20,264 bases of DNA from a virus: positions 1-20,264 of IMG/VR virus record IMGVR_UViG_3300042905_003585. One strand, written 5' to 3'. The translations under genes were made by a program, and so were the position numbers. The notes under the pieces are model-generated. The model did no database searches, had not been told where the DNA came from, and saw only the letters and a program-made list of their open reading frames with translations. This document shows, piece by piece, positions 4,332 through 19,862 of this stretch (its first letter is position 1; each line of letters opens with the position of its first letter).

Positions 4332-5861
4332 GTGCCAAGCTATACGCATCTTGCTTACCGCCGCAATGCTCAAGCCGCCGCACGCAGACAGCAAATACGC
4401 AAGCCACGTAACGCAGAAGCACTGAAGAAAGCCCAGGAAGATTTTGGCTTTTTCTGTGAATACGTAGCGGATAAACCACCGGCTGCTCATCACCTCAACT
4501 GGCATCGACACTTTGTCACCGAGGAGGACAGCAGCTGTCTCATTAAGATCGCTGGTCCCAACGTGGATCTCCTGGCACCCAGGGGCTCCGCCAAGTCCAC
4601 AGTGTTGGGTCTGCTTACGGCGTGGGCCATTGGCATCCATACGCACGCAGGGCTGCCACTGCAGATTCTTTATCTGTCCTATACGGTTGACATTGCTCGT
4701 TCCAAATCCTCCACCATTAAACGCATCATTGAAAGCAAACGATACCAAGAGGTTTTCCCTAAAGTTCGCCTTCTGAAGAACGCCACCAGTAATGAGTACT
4801 GGTCAATTGATCACAAGTTTGCTGGCATTGACGTAACAGGTGACGAACAGTTTACCCTTTGCGCAGCAGGCCTCAAGGGTTCGGTGACTTCCAAGCGTTC
4901 GCACTTGGTCATGATTGATGACGCCATCAAGTCAGCCGCAGATATTGCCAACCCTGACATCAGGAAACAGATGCAGGACAACTGGAACGCTGTGATTGCA
5001 CCCACCATGTTTGAAGGTGCACGAGCGATCTGCCTTGGTACTCGCTTCAGACACGATGACATTCACTCCACAACATTCAATGAACAAAACAACTGGCAAC
5101 AGATTGTTCTTTCGGCAATTCAAAACAATCCCATCACTGGGGAAGAGGAATCGTATTGGCCAGACATGTGGTCATTAGATTACCTGAAGGAGAAAAAACG
5201 GCAAGCACCAATTGCTTTCTCGTTCCAGTACATGAATCAAGTCATCCGGCAGAACGAACTTTCGTTGGCTCCGGAGTTGATTGTGAAAGCGGAAATTGCA
5301 ACGGAGTTTGACGCCCTTGGAGTTGGGGTTGACCTCTCCGCTGGCACTAAAGAGAAAAACGATTACACAGTTATGATTCTTGGTGGTCGCATTGGCGACC
5401 GCATTCATATCATTGATTACCGACGTATTCGCGTCATGGGTAACCTTGAAAAACTTGATGCCCTCAAGGAGTTGTTGAATGATTGGTCGGTGATTGCCAA
5501 AGACGAACAAAGCGGTTTGTATTACCCCAGCTATTCAACGTGCGACATTTGGAGTGAGGCCGTACAGTACCAGGCATCCCTGGAGGCAGACTTCAAACGT
5601 GTTTGCTTGAACAATGAAGGTCTCTACAATTTGATTTGGCATCCCGTCAAAGGTTTCAGGGCGGATAAATTGGCCCGTTTCCGTGGCATTATGGGAATGT
5701 TTGAGGACCGCAAGATTATCTTCAATCGTTTTCGTAACTTCACCAATATGTTTGAAGAGCTTACCAACTTTGGCGTAAGTAGTCACGACGATTGTGTTGA
5801 CGCTCTTGTCTGGCTCGTTACCGGATTAGCAAGGAAGGGACAGTTACACCTCGATTACTGA
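4332..5861 (+). CDS. terL: Terminase large subunit (packaging ATPase and nuclease)
   Basis: 509 residues, GTG start. TerL docks on the portal, pumps DNA into the prohead using ATP, and cuts the concatemer. The N-terminal ATPase domain has a Walker A loop (LLAPRGSAKST, about residues 80-90) and a Walker B strand (HLVMIDD, about residues 191-197). The second Asp stands where many terminases carry Glu; an Asp-Asp pair is also known in T7-type maturases. The nuclease domain begins near residue 330 with GVDLSAG plus a following KNDYT, and ends with the characteristic HDDCVDAL near residue 490. All three regions look intact and the length is normal. No inteins or frameshifts are seen. The gene lies upstream of the portal, the usual order. 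Confidence 0.93.
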   Translation: MPSYTHLAYRRNAQAAARRQQIRKPRNAEALKKAQEDFGFFCEYVADKPPAAHHLNWHRHFVTEEDSSCLIKIAGPNVDLLAPRGSAKSTVLGLLTAWAIGIHTHAGLPLQILYLSYTVDIARSKSSTIKRIIESKRYQEVFPKVRLLKNATSNEYWSIDHKFAGIDVTGDEQFTLCAAGLKGSVTSKRSHLVMIDDAIKSAADIANPDIRKQMQDNWNAVIAPTMFEGARAICLGTRFRHDDIHSTTFNEQNNWQQIVLSAIQNNPITGEEESYWPDMWSLDYLKEKKRQAPIAFSFQYMNQVIRQNELSLAPELIVKAEIATEFDALGVGVDLSAGTKEKNDYTVMILGGRIGDRIHIIDYRRIRVMGNLEKLDALKELLNDWSVIAKDEQSGLYYPSYSTCDIWSEAVQYQASLEADFKRVCLNNEGLYNLIWHPVKGFRADKLARFRGIMGMFEDRKIIFNRFRNFTNMFEELTNFGVSSHDDCVDALVWLVTGLARKGQLHLDY

Positions 5862-11314: not shown

Positions 11315-12124
11315 ATGACCTATTTGTCCGCTAAAAAAATCTTCCCAGGCAACTGGGCAGAAGCCCTGAACGGCTGGTACAAGAACATCGACTCTATTGT
11401 CGAAGGCGGTACTGCTCTCGACAGCTCCCTTGGTGGCCCCACCTCGGTCCTTGCTCTGCCTGGTTACCGTTATTTCCAGCAGCGTGGCTATGTCGCAGTG
11501 ACAACCACCTCTGGTGCTGGTAGCGTCAACTCCGCTGCTGTGATCGTTCCCTCGCCCTATCGTCAGGATGACACTCGTCCCGACATCACGGGCATGGTGA
11601 TCTCTGGCAGCAGCACACTGCCTGCTTACGTGTACCGCACCGCCATTTCGGTTGCCTCTGGTTGGGGTGACGGTCGTGTTGCCTCTGGTGTGTATGCCGC
11701 TACCGGTAACGTCATTTCGTTCGGTCGCAGCAACGGTGGTGCACCTGTCGCCGCTTCTGGCGTGGGTGAAGGCGTGATTCAAGCCAACCTGACTTCCACT
11801 GTTTCCGGCCTCCAAGCTGGCGAAATCTACTTCGCTGGCGGCACTGCCGGTTATGGTACCAACGCCTTCCTGACCGCTACTGGCGCCGCTGGTGTCTCTG
11901 GTTCTGTGGTGAATTACCCGGTTACTGCCTCGACCACGCTGCGTGTGTTTGCTAAGGAAACTGCAAACTCCACCACAACTTCCGGTGGTTTCTACATCTC
12001 CAGCGGTGACGCCGCCGCCGGTCGTGTTGGTTACCTGGTTGTGGAAACCTGCTACGTCCAGCCTGACATTGCCCCTGGCTACGAAGACATCGAAGCTTAC
12101 CTGCTTGGCCGCACTGTCAGCTGA
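11315..12124 (+). CDS. Probable capsid decoration or minor structural protein (269 aa)
   Basis: 269 residues; ATG 11315 with AAGGAA at 11303-11308. After a helical N-terminus (AKKIFPGNWAEALNGWYKNI), the rest is Gly/Ser/Thr/Ala/Val-rich with many short strand-like runs, typical of beta-sandwich surface proteins. The C-terminus ends PGYEDIEAYLLGRTVS. It follows the capsid gene by 35 nt and shares its strongly biased codon choice, which suggests a high-copy virion protein such as a cement or decoration protein. The function is inferred from place and composition only. Confidence 0.65.
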   Translation: MTYLSAKKIFPGNWAEALNGWYKNIDSIVEGGTALDSSLGGPTSVLALPGYRYFQQRGYVAVTTTSGAGSVNSAAVIVPSPYRQDDTRPDITGMVISGSSTLPAYVYRTAISVASGWGDGRVASGVYAATGNVISFGRSNGGAPVAASGVGEGVIQANLTSTVSGLQAGEIYFAGGTAGYGTNAFLTATGAAGVSGSVVNYPVTASTTLRVFAKETANSTTTSGGFYISSGDAAAGRVGYLVVETCYVQPDIAPGYEDIEAYLLGRTVS

Positions 12125-12130
12125 ATAAGC

Positions 12131-12136
12131 TAAACT
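12131..12136 (+). promoter_or_regulatory. -10-like hexamer TAAACT
   Basis: TAAACT is 26 nt before ATG 12163 and immediately upstream of the hairpin at 12137-12161. Transcription from here would begin inside the hairpin's left arm or loop. Confidence 0.35.
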
Positions 12137-12161
12137 AGGACCAGAATTAACATCTGGTCCT
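12137..12161 (+). promoter_or_regulatory. 9-bp hairpin directly abutting a start codon
   Basis: AGGACCAGA (12137-12145) and TCTGGTCCT (12153-12161) form a perfect 9-bp stem with a 7-nt loop. The stem ends one base before ATG 12163, so on a read-through mRNA it would bury the ribosome landing site. No U-tract follows, so it is not a standard terminator, though it also marks the end of the capsid operon. Confidence 0.5.
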
Positions 12162-12162
12162 C

Positions 12163-12573
12163 ATGCTTTACCAGCACAAAAAAACTGGCGCTCGCGTCAA
12201 AGTTGTCAGTGAGTTTGATAATGGCGATTGGTTCATGGTCGAAGATCAGGACGGTCGCCTTTACACCGCTTACAACTCTGAACTTATCCCAGATGAAGAG
12301 GCTACCAAAAAAGTAAAAACTCTTCAAGTCAAAGATAAAGCAGCCAAAGAGGACCCACGGGATTTTCCCCCTGATCACCGTTTAAATGTCAATTCCGCTA
12401 CCGCACAAATGCTTGCGGATCACATTAAGGGAATTGGTCTTAAAACGGCACGTGAGATTAAAGACCTTCAGATGTCTCTGTCGGGTGAAAGATTCAATAA
12501 TCTTGAACAGCTGAAGCAAATCAAGCGTGTTGATTGGAATGCGGTCCTGGCGGCCGATTTGATTCGCGTATAA
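12163..12573 (+). CDS. Helix-hairpin-helix protein with small N-terminal beta domain
   Basis: 136 residues. Residues 1-45 look like a small beta barrel (GARVKVVSEFDNGDWFMVED, then LYTAYNSELIPDEE), similar to KOW/SH3-like modules. After a charged linker, residues 72-135 match the ComEA/helix-hairpin-helix pattern: LNVNSATAQML, then IKGIGLKTAREI with the Gly-Ile-Gly hairpin, then FNNLEQLKQIKRVDW. ComEA-type domains bind the DNA backbone without sequence preference. Standing right after the capsid and decoration genes and ended by a strong terminator, it may bind packaged DNA or act at the head-tail joint. That role is inference; the domain is clear by eye. Confidence 0.72.
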   Translation: MLYQHKKTGARVKVVSEFDNGDWFMVEDQDGRLYTAYNSELIPDEEATKKVKTLQVKDKAAKEDPRDFPPDHRLNVNSATAQMLADHIKGIGLKTAREIKDLQMSLSGERFNNLEQLKQIKRVDWNAVLAADLIRV

Positions 12574-12587
12574 CCATCTCCACCAAG

Positions 12588-12611
12588 CCCCTGGGAAACC
12601 AGGGGTTTTTT
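12588..12611 (+). terminator. Rho-independent terminator
   Basis: CCCCTGG (12588-12594) pairs with CCAGGGG (12599-12605) around a GAAA tetraloop, followed by six T (12606-12611). It lies 15 nt after the stop of the helix-hairpin-helix gene and is the only textbook intrinsic terminator noticed in the window. Confidence 0.9.
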
Positions 12612-12616
12612 AATCT

Positions 12617-12622
12617 TACAAT
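12617..12622 (+). promoter_or_regulatory. -10-like hexamer TACAAT
   Basis: TACAAT begins 6 nt after the terminator T-tract and 18 nt before ATG 12641. A new transcript starting here would be expected because the terminator isolates the gene from upstream reading. Confidence 0.45.
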
Positions 12623-12640
12623 GAAGAATAAAACGATACC

Positions 12641-13378
12641 ATGGCAGGCATAACATACTTAGGACAGGTGGGTTCTACCGGAGTATCAACCGGCCCCCAT
12701 AAGCATGTTTATGTTAAAGATCTTTCGACAGGACAATACATTGATCCCTCTACTATTCGTTCTGCTTTGGCTGGTGTTCGCATTGGCGAGCAAAGAGTAC
12801 CTGCACTGATTAAAAACAAAGAAGGTAAATACGATTTCAATCCACAAGCTGGGATCAGCCTGACTTCCAAGTATGGTCCGCGCAGTGCCCCAACCAAGGG
12901 AGCCAGTTCGTTTCACCGGGGAGAAGATTGGGCTCTTCCAGAAGGAACTCCAGTTTATTTCGAAGGCTCTGGTACATACAAACCCCTTGCTAATCAAGGT
13001 GGTTACGGCAACCTGGCAGCATTTACCACAGGAGATAACAAATACGAACTTGGTTTCGGACACATGAAATCCCTTGGCAAAGCCGGGGCTATTGCATCAA
13101 CTGCACCAACTGCGGCACCGACTCAACCACAAGGGGGTACAGATTCTCGCGCTGACGACATCATTAAAGCGTTTATGTACGGCGCTCAGTTGCAGGGTAA
13201 AGAACCAGAAAAACCCAAGAAAACAATACAAGACGCACTCAAAGAACAGTTGGTTGGAGGTTTAATTTCACAAGCACTCAACCCCATGGGATTCCTGGAT
13301 TCCTACAGAACAAACGATCCGTTACTTATGGGTCAATCCAGCGCCACATCAGATTATCTCAATGGCCTGTTTGGTTGA
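12641..13378 (+). CDS. M23-type peptidoglycan endopeptidase with permuted motif order
   Basis: 245 residues. M23 (LytM-like) zinc peptidases cut peptidoglycan cross-links. The normal order of ligands is HxxxD, then a His, then HxH within G-x-STGPHxH. Here the HxH part comes first (GSTGVSTGPHKH, His20 and His22), and the remainder follows: SKYGPR at about residues 77-82, FHRGEDWALPEGTPVYFEGSG with His92 and Asp96, GGYGN, then GHM with His141. All expected ligands are present, which argues for a working permuted enzyme. Residues 150-170 are an Ala/Pro/Thr/Gln linker. Residues 171-219 form a tail also found on the transglycosylase at 15126-15788. Probably a virion-borne entry enzyme. No signal peptide. 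Confidence 0.78.
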   Translation: MAGITYLGQVGSTGVSTGPHKHVYVKDLSTGQYIDPSTIRSALAGVRIGEQRVPALIKNKEGKYDFNPQAGISLTSKYGPRSAPTKGASSFHRGEDWALPEGTPVYFEGSGTYKPLANQGGYGNLAAFTTGDNKYELGFGHMKSLGKAGAIASTAPTAAPTQPQGGTDSRADDIIKAFMYGAQLQGKEPEKPKKTIQDALKEQLVGGLISQALNPMGFLDSYRTNDPLLMGQSSATSDYLNGLFG

Positions 13379-13389
13379 TTACTTGCTTT

Positions 13390-13395
13390 TATAAT
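13390..13395 (+). promoter_or_regulatory. -10 hexamer TATAAT
   Basis: A perfect TATAAT 22 nt before the GTG at 13418, in the 39-nt gap after the M23-type gene. It supports this GTG, which lacks a Shine-Dalgarno sequence, as the start. No -35 box is visible. Confidence 0.5.
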
Positions 13396-13417
13396 TGAAA
13401 GACAACGACACGTAGAA

Positions 13418-13879
13418 GTGCAGTTAAGCGACTACGACAAAAGTAGAGTTCGTTACCACCTCGGTTACTTTACTGTTTCTGTTCCGGCTGGCGATTACGC
13501 CCGCCTGGAAGAAGCAATGAACACCGTGCCGGATTCGTACTTCTACGACAAGCTCGCTATTCAGTTGGGTCGTTGTGACACAGCTGAAAAGAAAACTGAA
13601 GTTGCTACTTCTCCTTCTACGCGCCTTGAAAGCATTGCTGGTGACGTTGATCGTACCATTAGATCCAGCAATGCTAAAGAAGCCTTAAAGGTTTGGGATG
13701 AGATTTATCTCTACGAAACAAACCGTTTAGCCGGTATCCTTTACGTTCCAAACTACAAGGATCCGTTCCAGGCCAGATACCGTTACGAACGCTCTGGCGC
13801 TGAATTCATCCAGGCATTACCTGGACCTGCCGACACCGCAGTTGGCTCCCGTATTTATTTACATGAGGTTTGGAGGTAA
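13418..13879 (+). CDS. Possible head-completion/connector protein (153 aa)
   Basis: 153 residues, GTG start. The N-terminus (SDYDKSRVRYHLGYFTVSVP) and the rest form a compact mixed helix/strand protein without low-complexity segments. It has an Arg/Glu-rich helical centre and an aromatic C-terminal part (YKDPFQARYRYERSGAEFIQ ... YLHEVW). Size, solidity and place after the head genes suggest a head-tail connector or neck protein. No motif proves this. The following gene starts 2 nt after its stop, with its ribosome-binding site inside this gene's last codons, so the two are probably coupled. Confidence 0.6.
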   Translation: MQLSDYDKSRVRYHLGYFTVSVPAGDYARLEEAMNTVPDSYFYDKLAIQLGRCDTAEKKTEVATSPSTRLESIAGDVDRTIRSSNAKEALKVWDEIYLYETNRLAGILYVPNYKDPFQARYRYERSGAEFIQALPGPADTAVGSRIYLHEVWR

Positions 13880-13881
13880 GT

Positions 13882-14910
13882 ATGAATCGTCAACCACAAA
13901 AAAACACAGCTCAAAAACAACGCGCCAGGGAACAGCAAGCTGTTTTAAATAAGTTGCGTGGAGGCGGCGTTATTTCTGGTGCGCAACCAGCCAATCCCAT
14001 CATTGGCGCCATTCAAAGTTTTATTGGTGGTGCTGGTAAAGGTGCTATCCCTGCATTAGGTGCTGCACGTCTTGGTGGCCAAGAAGTATTAATGAATAGA
14101 GGTGGATGGGATACAAGGCGTGCTGGCAGTGGTTCAATTAATGTTGGTGGACAAACTTGGTATCCTGCTCAAAGGGGCCAAGATCTTGTTTACAAACGTG
14201 CACCTGGTTTAGTAGGCGGACAATACGGCAGTATTTTTTCGGGTCGCGGAACTGAACCGCCCGCTCCAGATTTACCGCCCCCCCTTGGCAATCGCTCAGC
14301 AGCAGAACTTGCTTACCAACAGGAAGTTTCTCGTGTTGCCCAACTAACTGCACAGGACCCTGAGCTTCAACGTTACGAAGAAGCTCGCCAAAAGGCAAAA
14401 CTTGCAGGTCCTGGTTCTGCTGCCGAACAATCTGCAGAAGATCTTGGGATGCAGATTTGGGCAAAAAAATATGGCAAACCAGGAGACCTTGCGTCACGCG
14501 TTAAGCCCGGTCAGGCTGGTTACGATGTCATCCAACGTACCCTTGGCGCGGGTCAGATGGGCTCACCGTTGAACTTACCGTTTGACACCAGCTCCCCCCT
14601 TGGAACTACGCCCCCTATTTCTCCTGCTTCTTATGATGCTGGCAAGGTGGCCCAAGGATTGGGTCTTTCCACTGTGCCCAGGAATGCCTTTGCTGGTGCC
14701 TCTGCGGCTCCTTATGCAGGCTTCAGTCAGGGCCCCACACTTCAGAGCGCCCCCCTAGGCTTCCCCTCAGAAATGCCCACTGCCTCATACGCAGGCGCAA
14801 CAGGTATCCAACCAATGGGGTCCGCTGTTGATAAGTTTGACCCTAAGGGGCTAGAGGCCCAAAGGCTCCTGGAAATGTTCAAGGACTCCATTTTCACTAC
14901 ACAAAAGTAA
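13882..14910 (+). CDS. Large disordered/helical internal virion protein
   Basis: 342 residues; ATG 13882 preceded by GGAGG (13872-13876). A TTG four codons upstream is a weaker alternative. The N-terminus is basic and Gln-rich (QPQKNTAQKQRAREQQAVLN), followed by Gly/Ala-rich hydrophobic segments (residues about 40-70). A charged helical block at about residues 135-215 contains LQRYEEARQKAKLAGPGSAA, then EDLGMQIWAKKYGKPG and VKPGQAGYDVIQ; I have a faint memory of similar blocks in cyanophage virion proteins. The C-terminal third is Ser/Pro/Ala-rich, ending in a short helix. Probably internal or tail-associated, but the family is not identified. Confidence 0.6.
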   Translation: MNRQPQKNTAQKQRAREQQAVLNKLRGGGVISGAQPANPIIGAIQSFIGGAGKGAIPALGAARLGGQEVLMNRGGWDTRRAGSGSINVGGQTWYPAQRGQDLVYKRAPGLVGGQYGSIFSGRGTEPPAPDLPPPLGNRSAAELAYQQEVSRVAQLTAQDPELQRYEEARQKAKLAGPGSAAEQSAEDLGMQIWAKKYGKPGDLASRVKPGQAGYDVIQRTLGAGQMGSPLNLPFDTSSPLGTTPPISPASYDAGKVAQGLGLSTVPRNAFAGASAAPYAGFSQGPTLQSAPLGFPSEMPTASYAGATGIQPMGSAVDKFDPKGLEAQRLLEMFKDSIFTTQK

Positions 14911-15125
14911 TCTCCTGGCATTGCAAAGCATGTAAGCCCAGCCGACTGGACACAGATCTTTGATCTACGGGGGCCAGTGTTGTTGCTTTAAACCCATGAT
15001 TCTCTGCCCGAAATTTGTTAAACGAACCCTGACCTACCTGGCATCAACACTGGTTCTTCAAACAGTATTTATCCCTGGTCTCAGAGCAAGTTCAAATTGG
15101 GTAGGAGATTGAAAAACCTAAAGCC
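14911..15125 (+). other. Longest intergenic stretch (215 nt) with competing stems
   Basis: Stem A joins ACTGG (14945-14949) to CCAGT (14974-14978) around an inner AGATC/GATCT hairpin (14954-14966). Stem B joins CCAGTGTTG (14974-14982) to CAACACTGG (15045-15053). The two share one arm and exclude each other, as in attenuators. Stem B encloses the start of a 38-codon reading frame. No clear terminator or TATAAT is seen. It may be a regulatory leader for the transglycosylase gene. Confidence 0.35.
14996..15112 (+). CDS. Possible 38-aa hydrophobic peptide
   Basis: ATG 14996 to TGA 15110-15112 encodes 38 residues: a basic start (CPKFVKRTL), a hydrophobic helix (TYLASTLVLQTVFIPG) and a short polar end. 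It looks like a signal peptide or tiny membrane peptide. There is no Shine-Dalgarno sequence and it may be chance, but it lies just before a wall-hydrolase gene, where phages often keep small membrane peptides. Confidence 0.3.
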   Translation: MILCPKFVKRTLTYLASTLVLQTVFIPGLRASSNWVGD

Positions 15126-15788
15126 ATGGCACCAGTACGCGTTGGAACACTAAAACCAGAAGACAGGCAAGCTGTATTCTCTTCAGCAAAACGGCTTGGT
15201 TTGGATCCGTACGAGTTTGGTGCGCTCATTCACCAAGAGTCTGGATTCCGCCCGAATGTTTACGGTGGTGCCGGTGGTAATTACTACGGACTAATTCAGT
15301 TTGGCGGCCCGGAACGCGCAAAGTACCTGGATAAATCCAAGCTTGGTAACTACACAATTGCAGAACAATTGCCTGCAGTTGAGCGATTTTTACGTGACCG
15401 TGGTTTTCAGCCTGGAAAAATGGGTATTGATCGTGCGTATGCCACGATTCTTGGCGGCAATCCAAATGTTTCTTTGACAGCAAAAGATTCGTTTGGTACT
15501 TCTGTTGCCTCCTCGATCCCTAAATTCAAATCTGGAGGTTCGCTTTACAAGGCTGCGCAAACAACCTTGGGAGATCCACTGACTCAACCTACGCCTGTTG
15601 CCGCTCCGCAACCAACGGCTAGCGGCCAACGTTCTGTAGAAGAAATTTTGTCTTCTGCTTTACAGGGCGCAGCAAAACCAGAGTTAAACAAAAGGAACTC
15701 TATCGCTGACGCGATGAAAGAAACAGTGCTGAAATCACTGCTTCCAGATTTGTCGGGACTGCTTAATCCCTTTGGCTTCCTTCAGTAA
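15126..15788 (+). CDS. Lytic transglycosylase (SLT/lysozyme-like), virion-associated
   Basis: 220 residues, ATG 15126. Residues about 18-65 match the lysozyme-like/SLT transglycosylase pattern: GLDPYEFGALIHQESGFRPN with the probable catalytic Glu38, then the Gly-rich turn and YYGLIQFG. These enzymes cleave the glycan strands of peptidoglycan. The catalytic domain is about 130 residues, followed by a Pro/Thr/Ala/Gln linker (about 150-170) and a helical tail (171-220) ending LNPFGFLQ, which resembles the tail of the M23-type protein. There is no signal peptide and no holin next to it, and virion genes surround it, so an entry enzyme carried in the particle is more likely than an endolysin. Confidence 0.78.
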   Translation: MAPVRVGTLKPEDRQAVFSSAKRLGLDPYEFGALIHQESGFRPNVYGGAGGNYYGLIQFGGPERAKYLDKSKLGNYTIAEQLPAVERFLRDRGFQPGKMGIDRAYATILGGNPNVSLTAKDSFGTSVASSIPKFKSGGSLYKAAQTTLGDPLTQPTPVAAPQPTASGQRSVEEILSSALQGAAKPELNKRNSIADAMKETVLKSLLPDLSGLLNPFGFLQ

Positions 15789-15793
15789 TCACA

Positions 15794-16060
15794 ATGTCTC
15801 GTTTTTACAAATACTCTGACTATGATTACCTTCCAAGCGAAGCCTTGAAAGTTGGGATTGGCGATAGCTTCCTCTCAGAACCACAAGCCGAAACAGATTA
15901 CCTAGCCGCTCGGAAATTTAAATTTCAACCAGCGGAAGACGGTAATCTGTTCGGTCGTTTTCTTGCATTGCAAAACAATCCCAATGCCCTGGTTGAATCC
16001 AAGATGAAATTGCCCGCAAATTTCCAAGCCTTTATGGCGATGTCAGGCATGGGTGGTTGA
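15794..16060 (+). CDS. Small unknown protein (88 aa)
   Basis: 88 residues, ATG 15794, five nt after the transglycosylase stop. The N-terminus is Tyr/Asp-rich (SRFYKYSDYDYLPSEALKVG), the middle is polar, and the C-terminus is helical with Met/Phe/Gly (FQAFMAMSGMGG). No Shine-Dalgarno sequence. It is probably cotranscribed with the transglycosylase. No family recognised; a small tail or adaptor protein is plausible. Confidence 0.55.
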   Translation: MSRFYKYSDYDYLPSEALKVGIGDSFLSEPQAETDYLAARKFKFQPAEDGNLFGRFLALQNNPNALVESKMKLPANFQAFMAMSGMGG

Positions 16061-16063
16061 CGT

Positions 16064-16069
16064 TATAAT
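16064..16069 (+). promoter_or_regulatory. -10 hexamer TATAAT
   Basis: A perfect TATAAT starting 4 nt after the upstream stop and 23 nt before TTG 16093. It supports the rare TTG start of the next gene. No -35 box is clear. Confidence 0.5.
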
Positions 16070-16092
16070 TAACAAAAAGCGGCACTGGAAAA

Positions 16093-16878
16093 TTGAGCTC
16101 GACATCTACAAACAAGCAGCCACTGTTGGTTGATAGGCCCTTATTTGATTCGGTGCGTGTTACAACACAAACCGTTGGTAGTGCAGCAAGTAATACTTTG
16201 TTTGTGCAAGGTGGCCAAGCGCCCTCCATCCTAGTAGACATGGATGCGTCGCTGAGCGAAGACAATAACAGTGGCGGTGTCATTGATTCCATCACAATCA
16301 CGCGCAACGATTTTTATCGCGGCCCCGACTACACGGTAAATTCCACAACGTCAGGCACACCAATCTCCCTGGTTAGCGGACAGATTGTTTTTGTATCCGC
16401 CACAGGTTCCCTCACTGGTGCTGGCGCACCATACAGTGGTTACGGCTATTACACATACACCGGTTCTGGCACGCTGACAGGCGTCAACAGTGCATTGAAT
16501 TATTCGGGCGGTACTACGTCTGGTTTCTTGTACAACGGTATTGCATACGGGGATCAACCCGCTGCTACCTTTGTCTTTTACCAGACACGTGGCACAACCA
16601 CACCAATCCCTGGCTCTGGTGACTACAAAGTGTTATTCGCCAAAACAATCCCCGCAAACAGCGGTGTGGTTGACTGTTCGGATGTGATGCCGCAACTGGC
16701 AGTTCCCAGTGTGAGCGCAGGTAATACCAACGGCCTTGGTACTACAGCTCCACTGCGTAACAAAGGAATTTACCTTGAGCGTGGCGACCGTGTTTACGTT
16801 GGCGTGTTCCCGGATGGTCCCAATAGTTCTGGTTACATCCCAGGTGTGCACGTTGCTGCGCAAGGCGGCTTCTTCTAA
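16093..16878 (+). CDS. Beta-rich tail or surface protein (261 aa)
   Basis: 261 residues from TTG 16093; the next in-frame ATG is about 50 codons later and would remove ordered sequence, so TTG is preferred. The protein is Thr/Ser/Gly/Val-rich with short strands throughout, including a Tyr/Gly/Thr-rich middle (YSGYGYYTYTGSGTLTG). The C-terminus contains NKGIYLERGDRVYVGVFPDG, a strand pair like those closing phage fibre or adhesin beta-sandwiches. The gene at 19881 has a similar style. It probably forms part of a tail, fibre or capsid-surface structure. No enzyme motif is visible. Confidence 0.62.
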   Translation: MSSTSTNKQPLLVDRPLFDSVRVTTQTVGSAASNTLFVQGGQAPSILVDMDASLSEDNNSGGVIDSITITRNDFYRGPDYTVNSTTSGTPISLVSGQIVFVSATGSLTGAGAPYSGYGYYTYTGSGTLTGVNSALNYSGGTTSGFLYNGIAYGDQPAATFVFYQTRGTTTPIPGSGDYKVLFAKTIPANSGVVDCSDVMPQLAVPSVSAGNTNGLGTTAPLRNKGIYLERGDRVYVGVFPDGPNSSGYIPGVHVAAQGGFF

Positions 16879-18560: not shown

Positions 18561-19862
18561 ATGTTACTGCTGACTTCCACGTCGGATGCTGTTCGTATTG
18601 TTACTTCGGCGGCAACGAATGTTGAAGTTCATGCTGCGTTTGCAGATAACAACAGCGGTAATGTGTCCGCCGGTAGGCTTGACACCAATATCACAACTGC
18701 CACAACAACTACAATTGTCACTGGTCCCACAACCTCTACTATTCAGCGCAACTTAAGAACCTGTTTTATCAAGAATGATGATCCAACTTTAAGCAACAGT
18801 ATTACCATCAATCACACTGATGGTGCACTAACAACCACGGTGTGGACCGGTTTGCTTCTCGCTGGCGAATCTGTGGTCCTCAATGAGAACGCAGATTGGG
18901 TTGTATACGATTCCGCCGGTTTGGCGAAGGTCTATACAATGATTGGCCCGACAGGTCCCACTGGCCCTAGTGGCGGACCCACCGGCCCTACTGGTCCCTC
19001 TGGTACTACAGGCCCCACAGGTCCAAGTGGCCCTACAGGTGCGAGCGGCATACAAGGCGTCACTGGCCCCCAAGGCGCAACTGGTATTCAAGGTATTACC
19101 GGTCCTACAGGCGTAGCTGGTCCTACAGGTGTCACTGGAGTTACCGGCGCCACAGGCCCCATTGGTATCACAGGTGCCACAGGTATTCAAGGTGTAACAG
19201 GCGTAGATGGAGCCACTGGTCCCACCGGTGCCGCAGGTATTGACGGCCCTACTGGTGCCACTGGTGTTCAAGGTATTACTGGTCCAACAGGTGCCACTGG
19301 CATACAAGGTCCCACTGGTATCCAAGGAGTTACTGGAGTAACGGGCGCAACAGGCATTGCGGGTCCTACCGGTGTCACAGGTGCTACCGGAGTTCAGGGC
19401 ATAACTGGTCCCACGGGTGCTACCGGTGTCGCAGGAGTTACCGGTGCCACTGGTACGCAAGGCGCTACAGGAGCCACAGGTGCCACTGGCGTGCAAGGTG
19501 CCACTGGCGTTGTTGGCATCACAGGGGCAACCGGCGTACAGGGCGTAACAGGTGCCACTGGAATCACAGGGCCAACAGGTGCTACTGGTGCGGGAATCAC
19601 AGGGCCAACAGGTGCCACAGGTGTAGGAATAACAGGTGCCACAGGAGTTGTTGGAATTACAGGGGCGACAGGTGTTCAAGGTACTACCGGTGCCACGGGC
19701 GTTGCTGGCCCCACTGGTGTTACAGGCGCCACAGGAGTGATAGGCATTACAGGAGCTACTGGCGTAATAGGTGTATCAGGTGCAACAGGGGCTACCGGCC
19801 CTGCAGGCGCAACAAAATACGGTGATATTCTTGCTCTTCAATACGGCGCAGCAGTGCCCTAA
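18561..19862 (+). CDS. Collagen-like fibre protein
   Basis: 433 residues, ATG 18561. Residues 1-128 form a beta-rich head (Thr-rich, with [20 protein letters not shown] and [12 protein letters not shown]) that probably attaches the fibre to the particle. Residues about 129-416 are Gly-x-y repeats, about 95 triplets, mostly Gly-Pro-Thr, Gly-Ala-Thr, Gly-Val/Ile-Gln and Gly-Val/Ile-Thr, with small interruptions ([26 protein letters not shown]). Bacterial and phage collagen-like proteins form trimeric triple helices without hydroxyproline. Thr in the third position is typical of such proteins and may be glycosylated. Residues 417-433 ([15 protein letters not shown]) form a short tip. Likely a host-contact or surface fibre. 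Confidence 0.88.
18945..19808 (+). repeat. Collagen-coding repeat tract (9-nt periodic)
   Basis: GGN NNN NNN codon triplets repeat through about 860 nt, with frequent units such as ggtgccactgg and ggtgttcaaggt. Codons vary between units, so this is protein-level repetition with degenerate DNA repeats. It is prone to recombination and to length variation between related phages. Confidence 0.85.

Follow-up and report, generated by a model that had tools for sequence, protein, structure and literature searches.

The window is the whole stretch of DNA analyzed here, a virus record of 20,264 bases. A gene at 12641-13378 (+ strand) encodes a protein of 245 residues, from ATG to stop, with a single copy of each half of an M23 domain in one frame. 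The motifs follow one another along the ORF in the order GSTGVSTGPHKH (starting at G8 and containing H20 and H22), SKYGPR, FHRGED (H92 and D96), GTPV, GGYGN and GHM (H141). This is the order, residue numbers included, that the original prediction had given, with the H20/H22 segment first, then H92/D96 and H141. The start it assigned, 12641, is also correct, but the frame runs on to 13378, beyond the end it had placed at 13070. Upstream, an in-frame stop lies only three sense codons ahead of the ATG, so no N-half is concealed before the start codon.

The segment that normally ends an M23 domain occupies residues 4-39 (12650-12757, + strand, as are all parts of the gene). It consists of a strand, GSTGVSTGPHKH, another strand and IDP, and was delimited by PDB and profile alignments and by half-profiles, with strands at residues 4-10 and 20-27 of the model. 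Its H20 (12698-12700) and H22 (12704-12706) are the putative counterparts of the catalytic His291 and the zinc ligand His293 of LytM. A connector, residues 40-71 (12758-12853), bridges the original C-terminus and N-terminus of the domain; the form in the Acinetobacter phage has 20 residues fewer here. The segment that normally begins the domain follows at residues 72-148 (12854-13084), running from SKYGPR to GHM, and was located by Pfam, PDB phmmer, VIA-align and profiles. H92 (12914-12916) and D96 (12926-12928) would match the LytM zinc ligands His210 and Asp214, and H141 (13061-13063) the catalytic His260. The remainder, residues 150-245 (13088-13375), is a helical tail, common to other hydrolases of these phages and putatively serving virion attachment; model confidence is low past residue 157.

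A terminator-like hairpin at 12585-12608 (+ strand), a consensus match only, lies between the upstream HhH-motif gene and the M23 gene; seven terminator-like sites were counted in 12000-16100, where shuffled sequence gave 5.6 on average. A lytic-transglycosylase/lysozyme-like neighbour gene at 15126-15788 (+ strand) scores 21.2 bits against SLT, just under the cut-off of 21.3, and has the same kind of tail at its residues 152-219. At the window end, a collagen-like GPT/GAT repeat protein of 433 aa is encoded at 18561-19862.

Order of the M23 segments

A phmmer search of the PDB aligned the window protein with the M23 structure 3slu in opposite order. Query residues 59-148 matched residues 213-301 of 3slu and query residues 5-39 matched residues 309-341. 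Pfam PF01551 found two stretches in the protein, with a score of 32.3 bits against a cut-off of 28.7. The relative L079 also passes this cut-off (37.0 bits); the Acinetobacter domain L172 misses it at 22.0 bits, and the proteins of Synechococcus phage S-EIV1 and L306 gave no PF01551 match. Among the features of M23 membership, the H-x3-D zinc motif, the HxH motif and the third catalytic His are present. The linear order of an M23, HxxxD before HxH, is reversed, and the protein is therefore named a circularly permuted homologue and not a standard member. These alignments support reading the window domain as a circularly permuted M23 that would keep the M23 metal and catalytic residues. In such a permutation the chain would have been opened in the loop after the GHM/AHL strand, putting the HxH strand first. 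The former C-terminus would be linked to the former N-terminus by a stretch of ~32 residues, and the domain would stop where the first strand should attach.

Relatives sharing the order

A scan of IMG/VR found 85 relatives, of which 80 were kept, from 74 metagenome ids and with contigs of up to 85.7 kb. A motif search showed the permuted order in all 80 loci and the canonical order in none; the window's own copy (L083) and an Acinetobacter phage locus (L002) are likewise permuted. The cultured Synechococcus phage S-EIV1 (spelled S-EIVl in its record) encodes a full-length homologue, 41% identical, with the identical swapped order. Its locus (L001) lacks the strict motif, yet it aligns in swapped order. 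Homologues of this kind, which the original prediction had proposed to look for, thus exist in number, and the close relatives in canonical order that it had named as the sign of an assembly rearrangement were absent among the 80 IMG/VR relatives of the window (0/80) and among 80 Acinetobacter-type loci (0/80). Since 80 loci from 74 metagenome ids and a cultured phage share it, the swapped order is no assembly artefact.

Selection on the gene was estimated from 16 pairs of representatives past the dS filter, pairs that are not independent. The dN/dS was 0.16 for residues 4-39, 0.19 for 40-71, 0.18 for 72-148 and 0.29 for the tail. The value for residues 4-39 argues that the N-terminal segment is maintained and is not a remnant. 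The unusual order, and a gene that starts abruptly at the HxH segment, could also come from a chance fusion of two broken M23 halves from different copies, the alternative offered with the original prediction, or from a rearrangement in assembly. Two results already contradict this: the order recurs throughout the IMG/VR loci and in the genome of a cultured phage, and both segments are under purifying selection. With 64 distinct window-like domain sequences and the low ratio over the N-terminal segment, the chance that it is right is close to nil. The swapped M23 is a conserved rearrangement and not a broken gene.

Apart from ordinary bacterial M23s, canonical proteins came up only among the most distant scan hits (L346 in the S-EIV1 scan, L366 and L370). 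L346, L366, L370 and L372 were considered as permuted relatives and ruled out by their canonical order. Nine phage records match only within residues 66-147, and MW202640, the one examined, is canonical. The family profile splits into two canonical-order pieces in three phage proteins (L393, L394, L395).

A search of bacterial genome contigs gave 400 relatives, of which 80 were kept. Among the 79 frames with both motifs, 75 are canonical, three are permuted (L172, L173, L243) and the last (L237) is canonical, its second motif being spurious. All three permuted frames are Acinetobacter tape-measure-like. In G001's phylum, 272 of 398 genomes have a match at E <= 1e-6, and among the matches listed only G001 itself spans the whole profile. 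Motifs allowed nine of 20 fetched loci from this phylum to be classed, one permuted (G001's own) and eight canonical. A half-profile test on the 80 bacterial-contig loci and 17 others gave six permuted, 67 canonical and 24 with the N-half only. The six are S-EIV1, four Acinetobacter and one Moraxella; in canonical rows the C-half lies 86-88 residues downstream, among the 12 rows listed.

Two contigs have features of their own. IMGVR_UViG_3300034062_004592 (85,462 bp; L011, L019) carries the gene twice, close to either end. The two copies differ from each other and are 99% and 96% identical to the window; perhaps a strain variant was joined. The first bases of L164, a contig that carries the label of a bacterial MAG (LLD_282), already lie within a phage-type permuted M23 gene.

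Putative metal site and predicted fold

Residues were counted with a 25-row profile. Some loci are the same contig fetched twice, so distinct domain sequences were also counted. The window-like set consists of 157 loci, without L366-L370 (L366 and L370 are canonical and L369 is cut short). A hit was obtained in 156 of the 157, representing 64 distinct domain sequences. H20, H92 and D96 are each present in 156/156 hits and are invariant over the 64 distinct sequences. H141 is present in 154/156, the other two matches ending before it at contig ends, and position 22 is H in 154/156 and D in 2/156. In the S-EIV1-like set 42 of 45 loci gave a hit (32 distinct), one of which is the canonical L346; the 41 permuted hits all have H20, D22, H92, D96 and H141. 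The same five residues are found in 160/160 Acinetobacter-type tape-measure loci (45 distinct). These counts are partly biased, since some of the short peptide patterns with which the loci were retrieved include the residues counted. Across 31 representatives at 95% identity, S-EIV1 included, H20, H92, D96 and H141 are present in 31/31 and H22 in 30/31. The original proposal of a permuted M23 that keeps its metal ligands thus gains support, order and residues being conserved among relatives.

In LytM, H210, D214 and H293 are reported to bind zinc, with activation of the water proposed for H260 and H291 (PMC4594094). Matched from motif order, H92 would correspond to H210, D96 to D214, H22 to H293, H141 to H260 and H20 to H291. 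H22 would then lie beside H92 and D96 in the folded domain.

HxD replaces HxH at position 22 in the S-EIV1 clade and in the Acinetobacter form, and part of the family may therefore be inactive or differently liganded. The domain might even be M23-folded and catalytically dead, acting as a wall-binding or regulatory module, since the third ligand is Asp and not His in 41 permuted S-EIV1-like and 160 Acinetobacter-type hits. However, the window group has all five residues as in active M23 enzymes, LytM itself counts an Asp among its three usual ligands, so that Asp could serve, and the HxD groups retain the remaining four residues. A dead domain is thus improbable.

An AlphaFold model of the window protein was computed from 30 aligned rows. 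The pLDDT is 92-98 over residues 1-150 except in two blocks, 81-90 (85) and 11-20 (72), the latter being the least confident part of the domain and containing H20. The tail is helical and poorly defined, and the whole-chain pTM is 0.60, which suggests a well-packed domain given that ~90 residues are poorly defined.

A structural comparison with VIA-align returned M23 structures in all of the top eight rows (4qpb, 6smk, 9gy1, 6ue4, 2gu1, 3slu, 6muk and 4rny), all of which are also PDB phmmer sequence matches. The best is lysostaphin 4qpb, with Z 6.4 and 2.2 Å over 87 residues; the ninth row is an unrelated chain with Z 4.0. It is the ranking and not the size of the scores that carries the argument, because every Z is below 8, a range flagged for common arrangements. 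The aligned range of the model starts at residues 38-44 and ends at 152-155, leaving the HxH strand (residues 1-37 or more) outside. An aligner that works sequentially is expected to drop this strand from a permuted chain. A Foldseek search of the PDB with the window model gave no match at E <= 0.001. The Acinetobacter tape-measure domain, modelled separately, has a pTM of 0.74, with M23 peptidases in its ten best rows.

The folded domain would rebuild an M23 site, with zinc on H92, D96 and H22 and the water activated by H20 and H141. Zinc binding and peptidase activity would be expected of such a site.

Shared tail, role and known systems

The window and S-EIV1 were compared over 23 and 19 genes respectively, giving 14 matches in a syntenic locus. 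The permuted M23 gene sits in a cluster with the terminase, portal-like and major head genes. Among the other 13 matched genes, nine are 64-87% identical, including the terminase, portal-like, capsid and HhH genes and the gene after the M23. The M23 gene is 41% identical to its S-EIV1 match and four further genes are also low, at 38-56%, so the M23 is not alone in diverging fast. Among the S-EIV1 genes compared, none matches the SLT-like gene at 15126-15788; at the corresponding position S-EIV1 has a Phage_lysozyme2 gene.

Two other observations concern the S-EIV1 record. Its TerL (L001 2702-5242) contains an intein of ~330 residues (TIGR01445 and TIGR01443 hits), absent from the window TerL (4332-5861). 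A frame at L001 9481-10629 is 86% identical to the window major head protein over 387 residues; this region, annotated as a reverse-strand CDS and a short CDS, is probably mis-annotated.

The M23 tail is similar to those of the SLT-like gene and of the S-EIV1 Phage_lysozyme2 gene. The match has an E of 2e-5 without composition correction, a setting in which repeat-rich pairs also score well, and of 5e-4 and 0.002 with it. The window tail common to the two hydrolase genes (12641-13378 and 15126-15788) contains LNPxGFL. In relatives the tail stays while the catalytic domain is exchanged. In L340, L342 and L343 the leader and tail are near-identical but enclose another catalytic domain, with HxxGxAxD and HxH motifs that are reminiscent of M15-like (LAS) peptidases. 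Pfam matched this replaced domain only to Extensin-like_C (E 0.17, L342), and PHROGs to a family of unknown function at E 0.013 or worse; for L340, NCBIfam gave nothing and PDB phmmer only E >= 1.2.

S-EIV1 carries a separate PF00959 lysozyme ~9 kb downstream, and the permuted enzyme would therefore be left free for another role. From the shared tail, the swapped catalytic domains and the separate lysozyme, we infer that the tail may fix interchangeable wall enzymes in the virion. The tail held in common with the neighbouring hydrolase suggests that the permuted M23 is a virion-borne entry enzyme. It could instead be an endolysin that frees progeny at lysis. It is a small stand-alone protein, and of 14 PHROG families matched at E <= 0.1, six bear the name endolysin. 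Against this, the gene lies within the terminase/portal-like/major head cluster, in synteny with S-EIV1, which has a lysozyme of its own; the tail is common to two nearby hydrolases, and permuted relatives form part of tape-measure and virion proteins. A role in lysis thus appears unlikely, if rather less so than a dead domain.

The best-scoring named families are MepM and ShyA, both far below their own cut-offs. With these scores and general knowledge of Gram-negative-type walls, the D-Ala-meso-DAP cross-links of such a wall would probably be the bonds cut. The favoured explanation, held with good though not full confidence, is a naturally circularly permuted M23 metallopeptidase with the ordinary M23 site rebuilt. 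Its C-terminal tail would anchor it in the virion and it would open the wall during entry together with the neighbouring transglycosylase/lysozyme.

Permuted M23 domains are also found inside long virion proteins. There are 24 matching Acinetobacter phage records, in tape-measure proteins where so annotated; in L002, the one examined, the permuted domain spans residues 685-811 of a frame of 1440 codons. It is likewise embedded in a long chain in L392, a tail protein of a Moraxella phage. A structure search of viral models, whose best match is A0A510E7V3_3, led to cyanophage S-TIM5. The S-TIM5 virion protein AEZ65701.1 (997 residues) has GWVGYSGES...GAHLHMEIR, then HTGVD...AHLL. In the virion proteins of S-TIM5 (L397 12658-13107) and S-TIM66 (L398 1701-2162) the flanks compared are near-identical and the permuted domain is only ~40% identical, which suggests that this domain may have been exchanged. 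A search of viral contigs found no relatives of the S-TIM66 domain. An M23-like piece at residues 430-464 of the S-TIM5 protein (Pfam), ahead of the permuted domain, was considered as an intermediate of the permutation and rejected; it is read as a separate module because it is unchanged in S-TIM66 while the permuted domain differs.

In a tree of the N-half the permuted rows fall in three places, or two without S-TIM5. A single origin is not rejected (AU p = 0.061 without S-TIM5), with 78-79 columns and long branches. A tentative idea, held at somewhat worse than even chance, is that permutation made the M23 a cassette with adjoining ends, which could be inserted in the middle of a tape-measure or hub protein or hung on a virion tail. 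It would have arisen two or three times, in S-EIV1-like, Acinetobacter/Moraxella and S-TIM5-like phages, and some lines would have Asp where others have the His zinc ligand.

The permutation, natural and conserved, shows which M23 loop can be opened. It accounts for some phage wall enzymes, the S-EIV1 protein for example, being overlooked or only half recognized by standard profiles, and it offers a testable model in which virion-borne hydrolases are built as exchangeable modules. The Asp replacing the third zinc ligand raises a clear question. The family is already in databases as sequence; no description of a permuted M23 (or LytM or lysostaphin) was found in the open-licence literature.

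NlpC/P60 enzymes have a fold other than that of M23, and their permuted members, unlike the window M23, use cysteine/histidine catalysis. Circular permutation has a precedent in this superfamily, described as including wall enzymes, in the YaeF/Poxvirus G6R and LRAT-like families (PMC6403190). Among the phage proteins the closest parallel is S-EIV1 AHV82231.1, deposited as 'peptidase M23 family', for which Pfam-A gave no match at E <= 1. It is a full-length homologue with the swapped order in a syntenic locus, but only 41% identical and with Asp at position 22. The Acinetobacter/Moraxella tape-measure and tail form has the same order and gives one continuous profile match; unlike the window protein, it lies inside a long protein, has a shorter connecting stretch and carries HxD. 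S-TIM5 AEZ65701.1 and S-TIM66 UYE96869.1 share the permuted order of HLH, HxGxD and AHL motifs, but they are very diverged (6.4 bits with the family profile, N-half only) and the domain lies ahead of a Phage_lysozyme2 domain. Finally, canonical M23 enzymes (LytM/lysostaphin, MepM, ShyA and NMB0315) have the HxxxD, third His and HxH motifs found in the window protein, in which, unlike in them, the halves are swapped, with a connecting stretch between and a phage-specific tail after.
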